This document shows, piece after piece, positions 3,001 through 28,284 of a stretch of DNA of 64,000 nucleotides. Source of the DNA: Asterias amurensis (lineage: Eukaryota > Echinodermata > Asteroidea > Forcipulatida > Asteriidae); assembly GCF_032118995.1 (NCBI RefSeq), contig NC_092669.1:1-64000 (forward strand), written 5' to 3'. The notes beneath the pieces were generated by a model. That model made no database searches, was not told the DNA's origin, and saw nothing but the letters and a program-made list of their open reading frames with translations. How positions within the stretch are numbered: the first letter of the stretch is position 1; each line of letters opens with the position of its first letter. A program made the translations under genes and the position numbers.

Positions 3001-6000
3001 TAACCCTAACCCTAACCCTAACCCTAACCCTAACCCTAACCCTAACCCTAACCCTAACCCTAACCCTAACCCTAACCCTAACCCTAACCCTAACCCTAAC
3101 CCTAACCCTAACCCTAACCCTAACCCTAACCCTAACCCTAACCCTAACCCTAACCCTAACCCTAACCCTAACCCTAACCCTAACCCTAACCCTAACCCTA
3201 ACCCTAACCCTAACCCTAACCCTAACCCTAACCCTAACCCTAACCCTAACCCTAACCCTAACCCTAACCCTAACCCTAACCCTAACCCTAACCCTAACCC
3301 TAACCCTAACCCTAACCCTAACCCTAACCCTAACCCTAACCCTAACCCTAACCCTAACCCTAACCCTAACCCTAACCCTAACCCTAACCCTAACCCTAAC
3401 CCTAACCCTAACCCTAACCCTAACCCTAACCCTAACCCTAACCCTAACCCTAACCCTAACCCTAACCCTAACCCTAACCCTAACCCTAACCCTAACCCTA
3501 ACCCTAACCCTAACCCTAACCCTAACCCTAACCCTAACCCTAACCCTAACCCTAACCCTAACCCTAACCCTAACCCTAACCCTAACCCTAACCCTAACCC
3601 TAACCCTAACCCTAACCCTAACCCTAACCCTAACCCTAACCCTAACCCTAACCCTAACCCTAACCCTAACCCTAACCCTAACCCTAACCCTAACCCTAAC
3701 CCTAACCCTAACCCTAACCCTAACCCTAACCCTAACCCTAACCCTAACCCTAACCCTAACCCTAACCCTAACCCTAACCCTAACCCTAACCCTAACCCTA
3801 ACCCTAACCCTAACCCTAACCCTAACCCTAACCCTAACCCTAACCCTAACCCTAACCCTAACCCTAACCCTAACCCTAACCCTAACCCTAACCCTAACCC
3901 TAACCCTAACCCTAACCCTAACCCTAACCCTAACCCTAACCCTAACCCTAACCCTAACCCTAACCCTAACCCTAACCCTAACCCTAACCCTAACCCTAAC
4001 CCTAACCCTAACCCTAACCCTAACCCTAACCCTAACCCTAACCCTAACCCTAACCCTAACCCTAACCCTAACCCTAACCCTAACCCTAACCCTAACCCTA
4101 ACCCTAACCCTAACCCTAACCCTAACCCTAACCCTAACCCTAACCCTAACCCTAACCCTAACCCTAACCCTAACCCTAACCCTAACCCTAACCCTAACCC
4201 TAACCCTAACCCTAACCCTAACCCTAACCCTAACCCTAACCCTAACCCTAACCCTAACCCTAACCCTAACCCTAACCCTAACCCTAACCCTAACCCTAAC
4301 CCTAACCCTAACCCTAACCCTAACCCTAACCCTAACCCTAACCCTAACCCTAACCCTAACCCTAACCCTAACCCTAACCCTAACCCTAACCCTAACCCTA
4401 ACCCTAACCCTAACCCTAACCCTAACCCTAACCCTAACCCTAACCCTAACCCTAACCCTAACCCTAACCCTAACCCTAACCCTAACCCTAACCCTAACCC
4501 TAACCCTAACCCTAACCCTAACCCTAACCCTAACCCTAACCCTAACCCTAACCCTAACCCTAACCCTAACCCTAACCCTAACCCTAACCCTAACCCTAAC
4601 CCTAACCCTAACCCTAACCCTAACCCTAACCCTAACCCTAACCCTAACCCTAACCCTAACCCTAACCCTAACCCTAACCCTAACCCTAACCCTAACCCTA
4701 ACCCTAACCCTAACCCTAACCCTAACCCTAACCCTAACCCTAACCCTAACCCTAACCCTAACCCTAACCCTAACCTCCTAACCCTAACCCTAACCCTAAC
4801 CCTAACCCTAACCCTAACCCTAACCCTAACCCTAACCCTAACCCTAACCCTAACCCTAACCCTAACCCTAACCCTAACCCTAACCCTAACCCTAACCCTA
4901 ACCCTAACCCTAACCCTAACCCTAACCCTAACCCTAACCCTAACCCTAACCCTAACCCTAACCCTAACCCTAACCCTAACCCTAACCCTAACCCTAACCC
5001 TAACCCTAACCCTAACCCTAACCCTAACCCTAACCCTAACCCTAACCCTAACCCTAACCCTAACCCTAACCCTAACCCTAACCCTAACCCTAACCCTAAC
5101 CCTAACCCTAACCCTAACCCTAACCCTAACCCTAACCCTAACCCTAACCCTAACCCTAACCCTAACCCTAACCCTAACCCTAACCCTAACCCTAACCCTA
5201 ACCCTAACCCTAACCCTAACCCTAACCCTAACCCTAACCCTAACCCTAACCCTAACCCTAACCCTAACCCTAACCCTAACCCTAACCCTAACCCTAACCC
5301 TAACCCTAACCCTAACCCTAACCCTAACCCTAACCCTAACCCTAACCCTAACCCTAACCCTAACCCTAACCCTAACCCTAACCCTAACCCTAACCCTAAC
5401 CCTAACCCTAACCCTAACCCTAACCCTAACCCTAACCCTAACCCTAACCCTAACCCTAACCCTAACCCTAACCCTAACCCTAACCCTAACCCTAACCCTA
5501 ACCCTAACCCTAACCCTAACCCTAACCCTAACCCTAACCCTAACCCTAACCCTAACCCTAACCCTAACCCTAACCCTAACCCTAACCCTAACCCTAACCC
5601 TAACCCTAACCCTAACCCTAACCCTAACCCTAACCCTAACCCTAACCCTAACCCTAACCCTAACCCTAACCCTAACCCTAACCCTAACCCTAACCCTAAC
5701 CCTAACCCTAACCCTAACCCTAACCCTAACCCTAACCCTAACCCTAACCCTAACCCTAACCCTAACCCTAACCCTAACCCTAACCCTAACCCTAACCCTA
5801 ACCCTAACCCTAACCCTAACCCTAACCCTAACCCTAACCCTAACCCTAACCCTAACCCTAACCCTAACCCTAACCCTAACCCTAACCCTAACCCTAACCC
5901 TAACCCTAACCCTAACCCTAACCCTAACCCTAACCCTAACCCTAACCCTAACCCTAACCCTAACCCTAACCCTAACCCTAACCCTAACCCTAACCCTAAC

Positions 6001-22221: not shown

Positions 22222-22611
22222 TTAAAGGAACACGTTGCCTTGGATCGGACGAGTTGGTCAAAACAAAAGCGTTTGTAACCGTTTTTTATATAATGCATAT
22301 GGTTGGGAAGATGTTTTAAAAGTAGAATACAATGATCCACACAAGTTTGCCTCGAAATTGCGTGGTTTTCCTTCTACTGTGCGAACTAACACGGTCGGCC
22401 ATTTATGGGAGTCAAAATTTTGACTCCCATAAATGGCCGACGTGTTAGTCGACGAGGTAAAAGGAAAACCACGCAATTTCGAGGCATGTTTGTGTGGATC
22501 ATTGTATTCTACTTTTGCAACATCTTCCTACCCATATGCATTTTATAAAAAACTGTTACAAACGCTTTTCAAAGACCAACTCGACCGATCCAAGGCAACG
22601 TGTTCCTTTAA
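22222..22611. mobile_element. 390-bp full-length palindromic MITE
   Basis: Nearly the whole element is one inverted repeat. The left end aaaggaacacgttgcc is mirrored by ggcaacgtgttccttt at the right, and the arms meet at a perfect centre (gagtcaaaattttgactc, about 22411-22428). Both ends are flanked by TTAA (22222-22225 and 22608-22611), consistent with a TTAA target duplication as in piggyBac-type elements, although TTAA could also be part of the terminal repeat. Arm differences are scattered point changes and small indels. It has no coding capacity. Confidence 0.85.
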
Positions 22612-23250: not shown

Positions 23251-26200
23251 ATGAATATTCCTCCGAATCAGACGATATACATCAACAACTTGAATGAAAA
23301 GATTAAAAAAGATGGTAAGTAGGCAGTTTGTTATAAAGGGTCAGTTTGACGGTTATTCAGTTATTAACTTAATCATTGTTGTAAATAATATTCTACATGG
23401 TAAAATGTTTTGTATTAGCTATCCATGTATACAACAATATCTGCATTCTGTAGGCTTTTGTTTCATGTCATGGTCTTAGTATTATTGAACAAACGTTCCA
23501 TCTGTTATTTTAAATGCAACTTAATTACAGTGCACTTTGAGCAGGCTTATTGGTCAACCTAATGACTTCTTAGTTTGTATTAGTGCTAGATTGACTTCGC
23601 TGGTTTGAGGCTTTTAATTGACAGGTCTCTATGTGACTGTTGGTGTAATGATCAGCGTACATCATTCCCCTTATTCTGGAAAAAAAACTTGTTCCAATTT
23701 GTCAAATACTGTACTTGTTTGTCAAAGTGTACCACACTTGTGATAACTGTGGAACATTTTGATTCATTTTGATAATCATTATTGTCTCTTCATATTTTTT
23801 TTGTGCAGAGTTGAAGAAGTCCTTATACGCTATCTTTTCTCAATTTGGTCAAATTTTGGACATTGTTGCTTTGAAAACCCTGAAAATGAGAGGACAGGCC
23901 TTTGTTGTCTTCAAGGATATCAACAGTGCAACTAATGCCTTGAGATCAATGCAAGGTTTTCCATTTTATGAGAAGCCTATGGTAAGTAATTTATTAGAAT
24001 TATTCACGTTCTTTGGGGTGCTCTTATGACAACACTTGATGGTAGTCAAGCTGCAACCGATTTCACGAAACGCTAGGATTAATCTTGAGTTAGGATTAGT
24101 AACCCGTCCTAACTTAGGATGGGTTCAATGCGTCAAACGTCTTTAGATGGGGAACTTGGGCTAACTCGTCTTAAGTCCTAAGATTAATCCTAAGTTAGGA
24201 AGAGTTTGGTGAAATCGACGGCTGATTCCATACAAAAACGAATTTATGTCTTGCACAGGATTTATTTGTTCTTTTCAATGGTAGTTGCATTTTGTTAATG
24301 CACTTTGAGCAGGCTTATTGGTCAAACTAATGACTTCTTAGTTTGTATTAGTGCTAGATTGACTTCGCTGGTTTGAGGCTTTTAATTGACAGGTCTCTAT
24401 GTGACTGTCGATGTAATGATCAGCGTATATTTATTTTAATAGTTATCTCTGAATTATAAAAATGTTTCTCATGAAAACAGGCATTCAGCTGATTTCCTTG
24501 TTTTTGGTTTCTCGGCTGTGCAATTGAAAATTAAATACCACAAATCAGTTTTATTTAATCAGTTTTTAGGAAGAAACATTAGAAGTGGCAAAGCAAAATA
24601 TAGGATGACATGAAGTAGTTTATACCTGATGTAGCTTGCAAAGCAAAATACTAATTCAGCCACAAGGGGGTGGGTCAAGGACCACCACCAATGATAGGAC
24701 GACATGAAATAGTTTATACCTGATGTAGCTTGCAAAGCAATATACAGTCGACTCCCGTTATAACGAGGTCCGCCGGACTGGCCCATTTTCCTCGTATTAT
24801 CCGAATCTCGTCATAAACGCAGCGCGCTAAATATAGATACATACGTCATCATTGTGCATGAACACGTGTACGTGCATATACATGACATAATGGCCGCACG
24901 TGTGTACACAGATGCATGGCAGAGCTGCAATTGACTATACTACTGTGTGCATAGAGTAGTATGTGCGATGTACTGCACAAACAAGCACAACGTGGGGCTT
25001 ATAAAACTGTTTTAACTAAGTTGGTTTAGTTTTAAATTCAATTTTAAAATCAATTTACATTTTACAAGATTGATAAAAAATGTAAGATTTTAACTTGCGT
25101 TCATGTTTTGGGAAGTTTCTCTTACAAAACTTTGGTCGCCGGCAGTTTATTGCCAATGCAATAAATAGAGTCTTGGTTTTCATTGGTAACCACCTGTTTA
25201 ACGCTGGATGGTTCATTGCTGCTGCGAGATACCAGGGGAAATCTTACTGCTGCAATGCATATTGCACACGCTGTGAAAATTTTCAGTCAATAAAATAAAA
25301 GCTGGATTTTCACTGGTAACCACTAGTGTAATAATAGAAGGTTCATTGCTAACGCGAGATACCAGGGAAGACCGTGCTGTTCTGTGCATGTGTGTGCATA
25401 TGCAATACACTCGTCGCAGCAACAAAAAATAGAATCTTGATTTTCATTGGTAAACACTGTCATGTTAGATGGTTCATTGCCAATGTGGGATACCAGGTAA
25501 AATCTTGCTTTTGCATTCAATAATATTGATCACGCAACTAGTTTTGATTGTAAGTTGCGGGTGTTTTTTTTTCTTCTGAAAATTTATAATGCGCTTATAA
25601 ACTCAGTGGATCAGTATCTTTTCTTAAGATTTCTCAAATGTTTGAACCATGCAAACCTCCTAATCCCACCATTGTCCGGAGTTTGGAATTAACAACCTTG
25701 CTTGCTGACTCGTGACTCCCGATTTCGGATTAGTGTTGCTAGCGGTAGTGTCCACTTAACACCTCTATTGTATGTCTTAAAAGCCACAAATATCGACTTT
25801 ACCAGCTGTACAGGTATTTCCTTTGTTGGTTTTTGAATTGTTCTCGTTATAGAAGGGTTTCAAACAATGTTTTGCTCGTAATGGGTCTCCCAAATTACCT
25901 CGTTATAACCGTGTTCTCGCTACTACCGTGCTCGTATAATCAGTATTTTAATGCATTGAAACACGCATGGGGCCGTTCGGGACCGGCAAAAAACCTCGTA
26001 TCAACCGGAACGTCGTAACATGCGAGCTCGTAATAACGGGAGTCGACTGTACTAATTCAGCCACAAGGGGATGGGTCAAGGACCACCACCAATGATAGGA
26101 TGACATGAAATAGTTTATACCTGATGTAGCTTGCTGATACTATTTCAATTTGTTATTTTTAATAAGCGAGTGCAACCTAAAAGTAATAAATTTTATTGAA

Positions 26201-28284
26201 TATGTAGTTAACAACTTGTTTTCATCTTGACTGATTTTGTAGAGAATACAGTATGGGAAATCCACGTCAGATGCTGTTTCCAAACTGCAAGGTACATTTG
26301 TACCAAGAGAAAAGAGACCTGAAAAGAGGAAGCCAGAACCTGCACCAAGTAAGTATTCTAATCCTCAAGAACACAATGTACAAATTACATCGTTTCATTT
26401 GATGCAAGTACACAAGGTACAAGTTGCATCGTTTCAGTGCACTTTGAGCAGGCTTATTGGTCAAACTAATGACTTCTTAGTTTGTATTAGTGCTAGATTG
26501 ACTTCGCTGGTTTGAGGCTTTTAATTGACAGGTCTCTTTGTGACTGTTGGTGTAATGATCAGCGTACATTCATTTCAATAATTATCTCTGAAACAAACAA
26601 ATATAACGATTACTCATTAATAATCCCAAAAAATTGTTGTTGTATTTCAGTTCCAACAAAGAAGAGTAAGAAACTTGAAGCAGCAAAGCAGAGTGCTAAT
26701 CTAGCTGCAGCTGCAGCAGCAGCTTTGGGTCAAGGGCCACCTCCAATGATGGGCCAGATGCCACCTGGTATGATGGGACAACCTCCACCAATGCAGATTC
26801 AACAAACGCCATGTGAGTTGTACAGGCCGAGAACCGTTATCTCTCTCTCTCTCTTAAGACCATTAGGGCATCCATAGCCCGTGGTGGTCCTAGAAATGAA
26901 CTCCCTCCAAGCATTCTGGCTAAAGTCACAATATATTTAAAAGCAAAGTGTTTTATGAAAATATGCAAATCAATGGATATATTTAACCAACTTGACCAGC
27001 TCTCTTTTGAGTCCTGTTGATTTGGGGTTAAACTTTTCTACTATTTTTACAATCCTTTCCAAGGGAACCAGTCAATAAATATTATTTGACCTCGAGCACT
27101 GACTATTGATCACCGGCATTTAATTCTTTCATAAAGAAAGCCAGTTTGCATGTAAATGTAGTTCATTATTTTATTTTTTTGTTACAGCTGCGCCAGTTCC
27201 TGAGGAGCCTAATTCAATTCTCTTCATAAACAATCTTCCTCAAGATACAAATGAAATGATGTTGAAGATGCTGTTTACCCAGTAAGTTGAAGTTTTTCTC
27301 CTTTGTAGTTTTGTGTTCTTTGTATAATCAAGGCCTGGAAGAACCTGGAAGCCACAGAGACAATGGTCTTTGTTGCCCCTGGTCTTGGCCATGGTGTCTC
27401 GCCAAACATTTCCAAAGATTTTTCAATGGAAGTGCCCTTTGCTCAATAAAAATGATCTTGCCCTCTCAAAGGTGTAATTCTATGCCTGATAATCGCCTTC
27501 TGTCACAGTCTTTTGTTATGTGTGGGACTGCATGTCTCGGTCTTCGACTTCAAGGTCTCGACTACAACAGTTTACTTTTCGTTACATAGCTGTTGCTTTT
27601 GGGGGTTGTACATTTTGTCCGTCCATAATTATTTGTACTTATTGTTGTGTTTGCCCTTGTAAGATGTTTAGATTCTTTGTAAAGTTTCCAATCTTACTTG
27701 GAATATTTGTCTTTCTGTTTGTTTTGTATAAGCCATTTTGAAATATGTGGTACATGCCTCAATAGCAGCACAATGTGGTTTGGGTAAATTTGTCTGTATA
27801 CACCCAAACCAAATAGTGCAATCCTATAGTTAAGCCATATTTAAAAAAAAAAAAATGCTAATTGTTTATTTATTATGTATGCCTTCTTGCTCCTTTTTTT
27901 CATGTTCATTATTATTTGCATTTATTTATTAATTGTTGTGTTTGTACATTTTGCGTAGGTAAAATAATAAGTAATTGTAAAACAATTGCTATAACTGTGA
28001 GACATTACATTATCACTTCTGATGTTTGTTTCTGTGGTTTTTATGATGAATATTTGCATGAATCAAGCCGTTTTTATTTCATTAAAAAATAAGCATTTTA
28101 CCAATTATTTGTTTTGCATTGCAGATTCCAAGGTTTCAAGGAAGTACGACTTGTACCTGGACGTCATGATATTGCCTTTGTTGAATTTGAGAATGACACA
28201 CAATCAGCAATTGCTAAGGATGCTCTCCAAGGGTTCAAGATCTCACCAACAGCAGCAATGAAGATTACATTTGCAAAGAAATAA
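23251..28284 (+). CDS. snrpa: U1A-like snRNP protein, two RRMs
   Basis: Six coding exons: 23251-23314, 23809-23981, 26243-26348, 26651-26812, 27188-27281 and 28125-28284, giving 252 aa. The protein belongs to the U1A/U2B''/SNF family, which binds hairpin loops of U1 (and U2) snRNA in the spliceosome. RRM1 has RNP2 IYINNL at residues 9-14 and RNP1 RGQAFVVF at 49-56, surrounded by the family-specific [23 protein letters not shown]2 has RNP2 ILFINNL at 179-185 and RNP1 RHDIAFVEF at 213-221, and the protein ends in FAKK. The linker, mostly from exon 4, has an Ala run followed by Pro/Gly/Met-rich repeats ([18 protein letters not shown]). Length lies between fly SNF and human U1A, and invertebrates commonly have one such protein doing both jobs. 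Introns 1, 2 and 3 each carry a snoRNA-like element. Polyadenylation signals lie at 28411 and 28992. Confidence 0.96.
23531..23664 (+). ncRNA. Candidate H/ACA snoRNA, copy 1 (SNRPA intron 1)
   Basis: A 134-nt element in the host-gene sense. The 5' hairpin is closed by GCACT/AGTGC and has an upper stem of the CAAACTAA/TTAGTTTG type, with one mismatch in this copy. A hinge, tagattgactt, follows. The 3' hairpin is closed by CGCTG/CAGCG with an ATTGACAG/CTGTTGGT upper stem. After the closing stem come one base, ACA (23659-23661) and three more bases. The base of the 3' upper stem lies 14 nt before ACA, as expected for a pseudouridylation pocket. The hinge box AGATTG departs from the ANANNA consensus at one position. 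The same unit recurs in the next two introns. The alternative is a short interspersed repeat. The RNA target is unknown. Confidence 0.65.
24057..24218. mobile_element. Short foldback MITE in SNRPA intron 2
   Basis: Terminal inverted repeats begin cgatttcac at the left and end gtgaaatcg at the right. Inside them, paired blocks such as aggattaatctt and aagattaatcct and several tcctaacttagga-type strings face each other. It is about 160 bp long and non-coding. Confidence 0.75.
24299..24432 (+). ncRNA. Candidate H/ACA snoRNA, copy 2 (SNRPA intron 2)
   Basis: This copy has the same 134-nt unit and orientation and no indel relative to copies 1 and 3. The terminal triplet is ATA (24427-24429) instead of ACA, a variant that occurs in some functional H/ACA RNAs. 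In the 3' hairpin, T-to-C at 24409 and G-to-A at 24411 turn two G-U wobble pairs (with G24388 and T24386) into Watson-Crick pairs, so the changes preserve the fold. The perfect CAAACTAA/TTAGTTTG upper stem of the 5' hairpin is present. Confidence 0.62.
24745..26049. mobile_element. Non-autonomous pogo/Tigger-type element, 1.3 kb
   Basis: Terminal inverted repeats start CAGTCGACTCCCGTTATAAC and end in the imperfect complement, gtaataacgggagtcgactg. A TA lies directly outside each end (24743-24744 and 26050-26051), the target duplication of Tc1/mariner/pogo elements, and the CAGT start with a TTATAAC core is the known pogo/Tigger pattern. The interior has no transposase frame. The related uninterrupted repeat unit just upstream (caaaatactaattc) approximates the empty site. 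Confidence 0.88.
25165..25505. repeat. Three internal units of about 130 bp in the pogo-type element
   Basis: The phrase tttcattggtaaccac (or close variants), then ggttcattgc and gagataccagg, recurs three times with starts near 25170, 25300 and 25430. The units are diverged and non-coding, and are probably an internal amplification of the transposon. Confidence 0.7.
26438..26571 (+). ncRNA. Candidate H/ACA snoRNA, copy 3 (SNRPA intron 3)
   Basis: The third 134-nt copy in the host sense carries ACA at 26566-26568, and its 3' end lies 79 nt before the exon 4 acceptor, a spacing typical of intron-processed snoRNAs. Relative to copy 1 it differs mainly at an A-to-T change in the terminal loop of the 3' hairpin and at the base that restores the 5' upper stem. 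Similarity to copy 2 continues for about 25 nt beyond the 3' end, so copies 2 and 3 probably share the most recent duplication. Confidence 0.66.

Follow-up and report, generated by a model that had tools for sequence, protein, structure and literature searches.

Host gene and position of the element

The window, by which we mean the whole stretch of 64,000 nucleotides analysed here, contains at 23251-28284 (forward strand) the coding region of a U1A/U2B''-type protein of 252 amino acids, divided into six exons by five GT-AG introns. The protein possesses RRM domains and matches the solved chains of U1A and U2B'' with E-values of 9e-92 and 2.4e-88, respectively. The introns are numbered 1 to 5 within the coding region. 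Each of the first three holds one copy of a 134-nt element on the coding strand, just as the original prediction had placed them, and no copy was found by BLAST in coding introns 4 and 5 within the window. The coordinates are as follows.

23251-23314, forward strand: host exon 1, coding part only
23315-23808, forward strand: coding intron 1, holding copy 1
23531-23664, forward strand: H/ACA-like element copy 1; hinge AGATTG at 23588-23593, ACA at 23659-23661
23809-23981, forward strand: host exon 2
23982-26242, forward strand: coding intron 2, holding copy 2
24299-24432, forward strand: H/ACA-like element copy 2; hinge AGATTG at 24356-24361, ATA replacing ACA at 24427-24429
26243-26348, forward strand: host exon 3
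26349-26650, forward strand: coding intron 3, holding copy 3
26438-26571, forward strand: H/ACA-like element copy 3; hinge AGATTG at 26495-26500, ACA at 26566-26568
26651-26812, forward strand: host exon 4
27188-27281, forward strand: host exon 5
28125-28284, forward strand: host exon 6, coding part only

The distance from the copy to the acceptor site is about 144, 1,810 and 79 nt in introns 1, 2 and 3, respectively. The copies are colinear without any insertion or deletion, as first described, and differ at 4 (copies 1 and 3), 5 (copies 2 and 3) and 6 (copies 1 and 2) of 134 positions. The variable positions are 28 in the 5' loop, 101 in the 3' loop, 111 and 113 in a stem, 130 in the box, and 133 and 134, the last two bases.

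Two further features lie in or beside the host gene. Intron 2 carries a transposon-like insertion of about 1.3 kb (24745-26049) flanked by TA, with terminal inverted repeats in which 24 of the 30 outer bases match and with internal repeats about 130 nt apart; its CAGT...-type ends recall pogo/Tigger elements. Upstream of the gene, at 22222-22611, there is a large imperfect palindrome with arms of 129 nt (88% complementary) and 38 nt (97%).

Predicted fold and box elements

A hairpin-hinge-hairpin-tail fold is predicted for all three copies, with modest z-scores of -1.69, -3.05 and -1.93. For the hairpins of copy 1 taken alone, the z-score is -3.16 for the 5' hairpin and -1.08 for the 3' hairpin with its surroundings. 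In the free fold, some of the 5' hairpin pocket is paired. The last position of the 3' upper stem is element position 114 and the first of the box is 129, in agreement with the 14 nt between them claimed before and within the 13-16 nt or so expected between pocket and box. The box follows directly after the 3' stem, the 3' end being predicted, and reads ACA in copies 1 and 3 and ATA in copy 2. The originally proposed hairpin-hinge-hairpin-ACA arrangement is therefore retained for the fold of every copy, but for the ACA only in copies 1 and 3. ATA in place of ACA is rare in box H/ACA RNAs, in which the box lies 3 nt before the 3' end. The hinge is AGATTG in each copy, agreeing with the H box ANANNA in five of six letters; it had rightly been singled out as a weak point, and since it is one letter off the consensus, the element is termed H/ACA-like in this respect.

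The differences among the copies spare the pockets and preserve the fold. Both stem changes, at positions 111 and 113, occur in copy 2 and convert G-U to G-C and U-G to U-A. Pairing is kept in 111 of 111 cells across the three copies, a figure to be read with the structure having been derived from these same three sequences, in which no pair is changed on both sides and true covariation is thus absent.

A descriptor requiring two closed hairpins (-14 kcal/mol or lower), a hinge ANANNR, and ACA or ATA gave four matches on both strands of the 64-kb window, three of which are the element copies; it was shaped after the element had been seen and admits the imperfect hinge and the ATA. The fourth match, 25967-26119, lies where the intron-2 insertion ends. 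Shuffled windows (n=24) gave 0 to 2 matches with a mean of 0.46, so that four exceed what chance would give. When applied to two SNORA9-like control loci from elsewhere in the genome (see below), the descriptor found both, with one match per 3.1-kb locus and on the plus strand only.

Copy number, duplication and constraint

A DNA search of the whole genome (491,506,623 bases in 23 contigs) returned three copies, all within the host gene, at E<=0.001 as well as at E<=10; for repeats and large families, searches of this kind give minimum counts, and divergent copies could escape. The identity had been described as ending sharply in unrelated flanks. This is true at both ends of copy 1 in comparison with the others, but copies 2 and 3 have flanks in common, of about 17 nt on the upstream side and 31 nt on the downstream side, each with 6 differences, or 12 in 48 nt together. 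Copy 1 has no flank left for comparison with the other two. The traces in intron 2 are the following.

24433-24463, forward strand: 3' flank of copy 2, matching 26572-26602 beside copy 3 with 6 differences in 31
24630-24706, forward strand: worn copy of part of exon 4 in intron 2, aligned to 26676-26760, a trace of duplication

The worn exon-4 piece reaches a local score of 27, against 18.5 for the best of 200 shuffles, and includes 28 nt at 89% identity. The shared flanks together with this piece point to a duplication of DNA that included the neighbouring exon; judged from these traces, copies 2 and 3 are related through duplication inside the host gene. Between the two copies, 5 of 134 positions of the element differ, compared with 12 of 48 in the flanks that can be aligned (Fisher p 7.6e-5), the identity of the flanks being an upper bound since their ends were picked by similarity. 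Since the duplication, the element of copies 2 and 3 has changed less than its own flanks. Gene conversion could have added to the likeness of the copies.

Comparison with known families

The covariance-model search recommended at the outset was carried out, and Rfam gave no family in the window at the gathering threshold. At E<=5, the region 23400-26700 gave just two microRNA-type matches, on the opposite strand and far below threshold. At E<=10, five matches were obtained on 151 nt.

SNORA9 (RF00411): 14.1 bits, E 0.75, full-length weak alignment
S. pombe snR93 (RF01448): 15.6 bits, E 2.4, chance level
SNORD108: E 2.8
SNORA35: E 3.7
DdR1: E 6.7, opposite strand

The hinge stretch GUGCUAGAxUGA of snR93 resembles that of the element, and its printed consensus leaves ANANNA at the same place; the likeness as a whole remains at chance level. 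In the Asterias amurensis genome paper, small RNAs are described as annotated by Rfam, with 27 H/ACA RNAs (PMC10625585). As the element falls below every Rfam threshold, it is probably absent from these 27.

The match to SNORA9 deserves a closer comparison. SNORA9 is listed for 28S U1683 and U1782 (PMC12288042), which by our assignment, through a 13-nt offset, correspond to Psi1670 and Psi1769 in the human table (PMC6182160), and for the chicken ACA9-type RNA 5+5 pairs are given for the guide of the 5' hairpin and 6+4 for that of the 3' hairpin (PMC2653536). A starfish SNORA9 (ACA9) guiding these two sites is what the full-length alignment, the stretch UGCUAGA common to the hinges and GUUUGAGGC common to the 3' pockets might suggest, and the 3' hairpin of the element does pair 7+3 with Psi1769. 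The likeness lies in short identities at the hinge and on the left side of the 3' pocket, whereas the right guide of SNORA9 is unlike that of the element, which makes only 3 pairs at Psi1769; Psi1670 is outside the five best sites listed for either hairpin. Moreover, the 14.1 bits of the element compare with a gathering threshold of 85 and are not the best in the genome. A SNORA9 search of the genome gave two loci, separated by 2.6 kb on contig C10, with 37.9 and 32.3 bits, both also below the threshold.

L038 1501-1642 (contig C10): SNORA9-like control locus, plus-strand descriptor match, 6+4 guide to 28S Psi1769
L039 1501-1638 (contig C10): SNORA9-like control locus, plus-strand descriptor match, 6+4 guide to 28S Psi1769

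The 3' hairpins of both loci place Psi1769 first, with 6+4 pairs and a score of 23 against 15 for the next site. These loci are better SNORA9 candidates than the element, which is accordingly not taken for SNORA9; in view of them and of their clean Psi1769 guide, orthology is very improbable and was rejected, and Psi1769 was rejected as a target of the element. The C10 pair is a further example of H/ACA RNA duplication in the same genome.

Candidate targets of the two hairpins

The pockets were scanned against 99 sites in all. These comprise 38 of 42 human Psi positions in 18S (4 were dropped for having no U in the starfish), 10 of 11 sites in the 28S stretch 1523-1849 (1 dropped for the same reason), 16 and 24 further 28S sites in human segments, and 11 of 13 sites in U2. 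The human segments include the Psi4441 stretch, which is therefore not starfish sequence. Outside the scan were 28S 2495, 2619, 2826, 2830, 3616, 3618, 3674, 4937, 4966 and 4975, two 5.8S sites, and U1, U4, U5 and U6.

With loose geometry, the best site for the 3' hairpin is 28S Psi4441, with 4+7 pairs and a score of 23.5, which falls within the range of the shuffles (median 20.5, 90th percentile 25) and is not significant. Under a strict geometry, which demands at least 4 pairs per side and a distance of 13-14 nt between right guide and box, Psi4441 alone of the 99 sites is matched (4+7 bp) and is equalled by 24 of 1000 guide shuffles, a nominal figure since the strict geometry was chosen after the loose scan. 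In the SNORA9-like control loci, the right guide lies at the same 13 nt from the box. Pairing with Psi4441 leaves the lower and upper stems intact, the left guide standing 3 nt and the right guide 1 nt away from the upper stem, whereas the control guides abut the stem. The 3' pocket (element positions 80-83 and 116-122) would open on the uridine equivalent to human Psi4441, which we tentatively regard as the most likely target of this hairpin, somewhat short of an even chance.

26517-26520 (left) and 26553-26559 (right), forward strand: proposed 3'-hairpin guide in copy 3, tentative

In vertebrates, SNORA1 (RF00408) is listed as guiding 28S U4471 (PMC12288042), which we equated with Psi4441 of the Taoka numbering through a 30-nt offset (table of PMC6182160). 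Its target is then the same as the one proposed for the element. For the chicken ACA1-type site, 28S-3926, a 5+6 guide in the 3' hairpin is given (PMC2653536). SNORA1 is absent from the Rfam matches of the element at E<=10, with no detectable sequence relation between the two, and the SNORA1 model gave no match in the whole genome at E<=10, although this model may be too vertebrate.

For the 5' hairpin, 18S Psi93 gives 5+6 pairs with a score of 21.5 and U2 Psi37 gives 7+6 pairs with a score of 20.0, and both scores stay at or below 21.5, the 90th percentile of the shuffles. The CAB-type motif UGAG is absent from the terminal loops. Two further candidates were rejected. Psi4659 comes first for the 3' hairpin when mismatches are allowed, but both of its sides contain a mismatch and it is outside the five best sites with contiguous pairing. 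A supposed pairing of the 5' hairpin with 28S beside the sarcin-ricin loop would fall on a uridine absent from the human Psi table (PMC6182160). Scanning every uridine of starfish 18S, 5.8S and U2 and of the 5' portion of 28S found nothing above 20 shuffles; the 28S core was scanned without shuffles.

Proposed function and alternative explanations

By far the best reading of the element is a new intron-encoded box H/ACA guide RNA in three copies, to which we give a probability of roughly 85%. The structure, the box spacing, the intronic place on the sense strand, and the constraint relative to the flanks all support the H/ACA snoRNA-like assignment of the original prediction. Once expressed, the guide RNA would be freed from the introns after splicing of the U1A/U2B''-type pre-mRNA, would be bound by the H/ACA proteins dyskerin, NHP2, NOP10 and GAR1, and would direct the pseudouridylation of a uridine in another RNA. 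The relation between copies 2 and 3 is one of DNA duplication within the host gene.

Repetition and the sharp ends of copy 1 could also be produced by a SINE or snoRNA-derived retroposon inserted three times in the host gene. A SINE had been envisaged with hundreds of copies throughout the genome. The genome has at least three copies, all in the host gene, and as the searches return these three only, the element is no SINE; a dispersed family is refuted at the sensitivity of the search, and the DNA flanks common to copies 2 and 3, together with the exon trace, speak against retroposition, whose probability we consider negligible. Unlikely, though less so, is a conserved intronic structure that acts in cis, for example by controlling how the U1A pre-mRNA is spliced, and from which no stable RNA is released. 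The presence of single copies in three introns in a row and a constrained structure would suit such a role, but the H/ACA box spacing and the two-hairpin plan would be unexpected, and the distance to the splice site varies more than tenfold.

Within the H/ACA explanation, whose class assignment is unaffected by the choice of target, there is about an even chance that the RNA is functional but either has a target other than Psi4441, for example 18S Psi93 or U2 Psi37 reached by the 5' hairpin only, or is an orphan. The 5+6 and 7+6 pairs of the 5' hairpin are in line with this variant, whereas the scores within the shuffled range and the loops lacking UGAG argue against it. It is also conceivable, though only as a long shot, that the tripled guide modifies both 28S Psi4441 (3' hairpin) and U2 Psi37 (5' hairpin), having replaced SNORA1 in starfish, in which case the supply of a U2 snRNP protein would be tied to U2 modification through the shared transcript.

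The closest parallel to the proposed guide RNA is chicken GGgACA4, described with three isoforms in introns 6, 7 and 10 of PABPC4 (PMC2653536). As far as that description goes, the two have in common the H/ACA plan, intronic hosting on the sense strand, three copies in three introns and duplication within the gene; the starfish element differs in sequence, host gene, probable target, its imperfect hinge and the ATA in one copy. The kind of RNA, the intronic hosting and the duplication inside a host gene are thus already well known. As far as Rfam and open-licence PMC titles tell, the RNA itself and its host gene appear to be new; among the snoRNA titles listed there, none concerns a snoRNA in SNRPA introns or this element, and three passages of PMC4802181 contain nothing on hosting. 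The element adds a probable echinoderm H/ACA RNA without database match and provides a clear case of snoRNA copies nearly unchanged after duplication within a gene, even as the DNA around them decayed. Should the proposed target be true, a site served by SNORA1 in vertebrates would have an unrelated or unrecognisably diverged guide in the starfish.

Observations on the U2 and 28S genes

Two side observations concern these genes. Of 36 genome matches to U2 snRNA, 31 lie in one array on contig C9, at about 17.755-17.911 Mb, many of them about 5.4 kb apart. The one array unit that was read (L012 206-399, 968-1014 and 2142-2187) also contains two histone 3' stem-loops, and on C9 the genes for U2 seem to be intermingled with histone genes. 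The 28S gene is interrupted in locus L021 near position 4120, within a stretch resembling the target site of the R2 retrotransposon.
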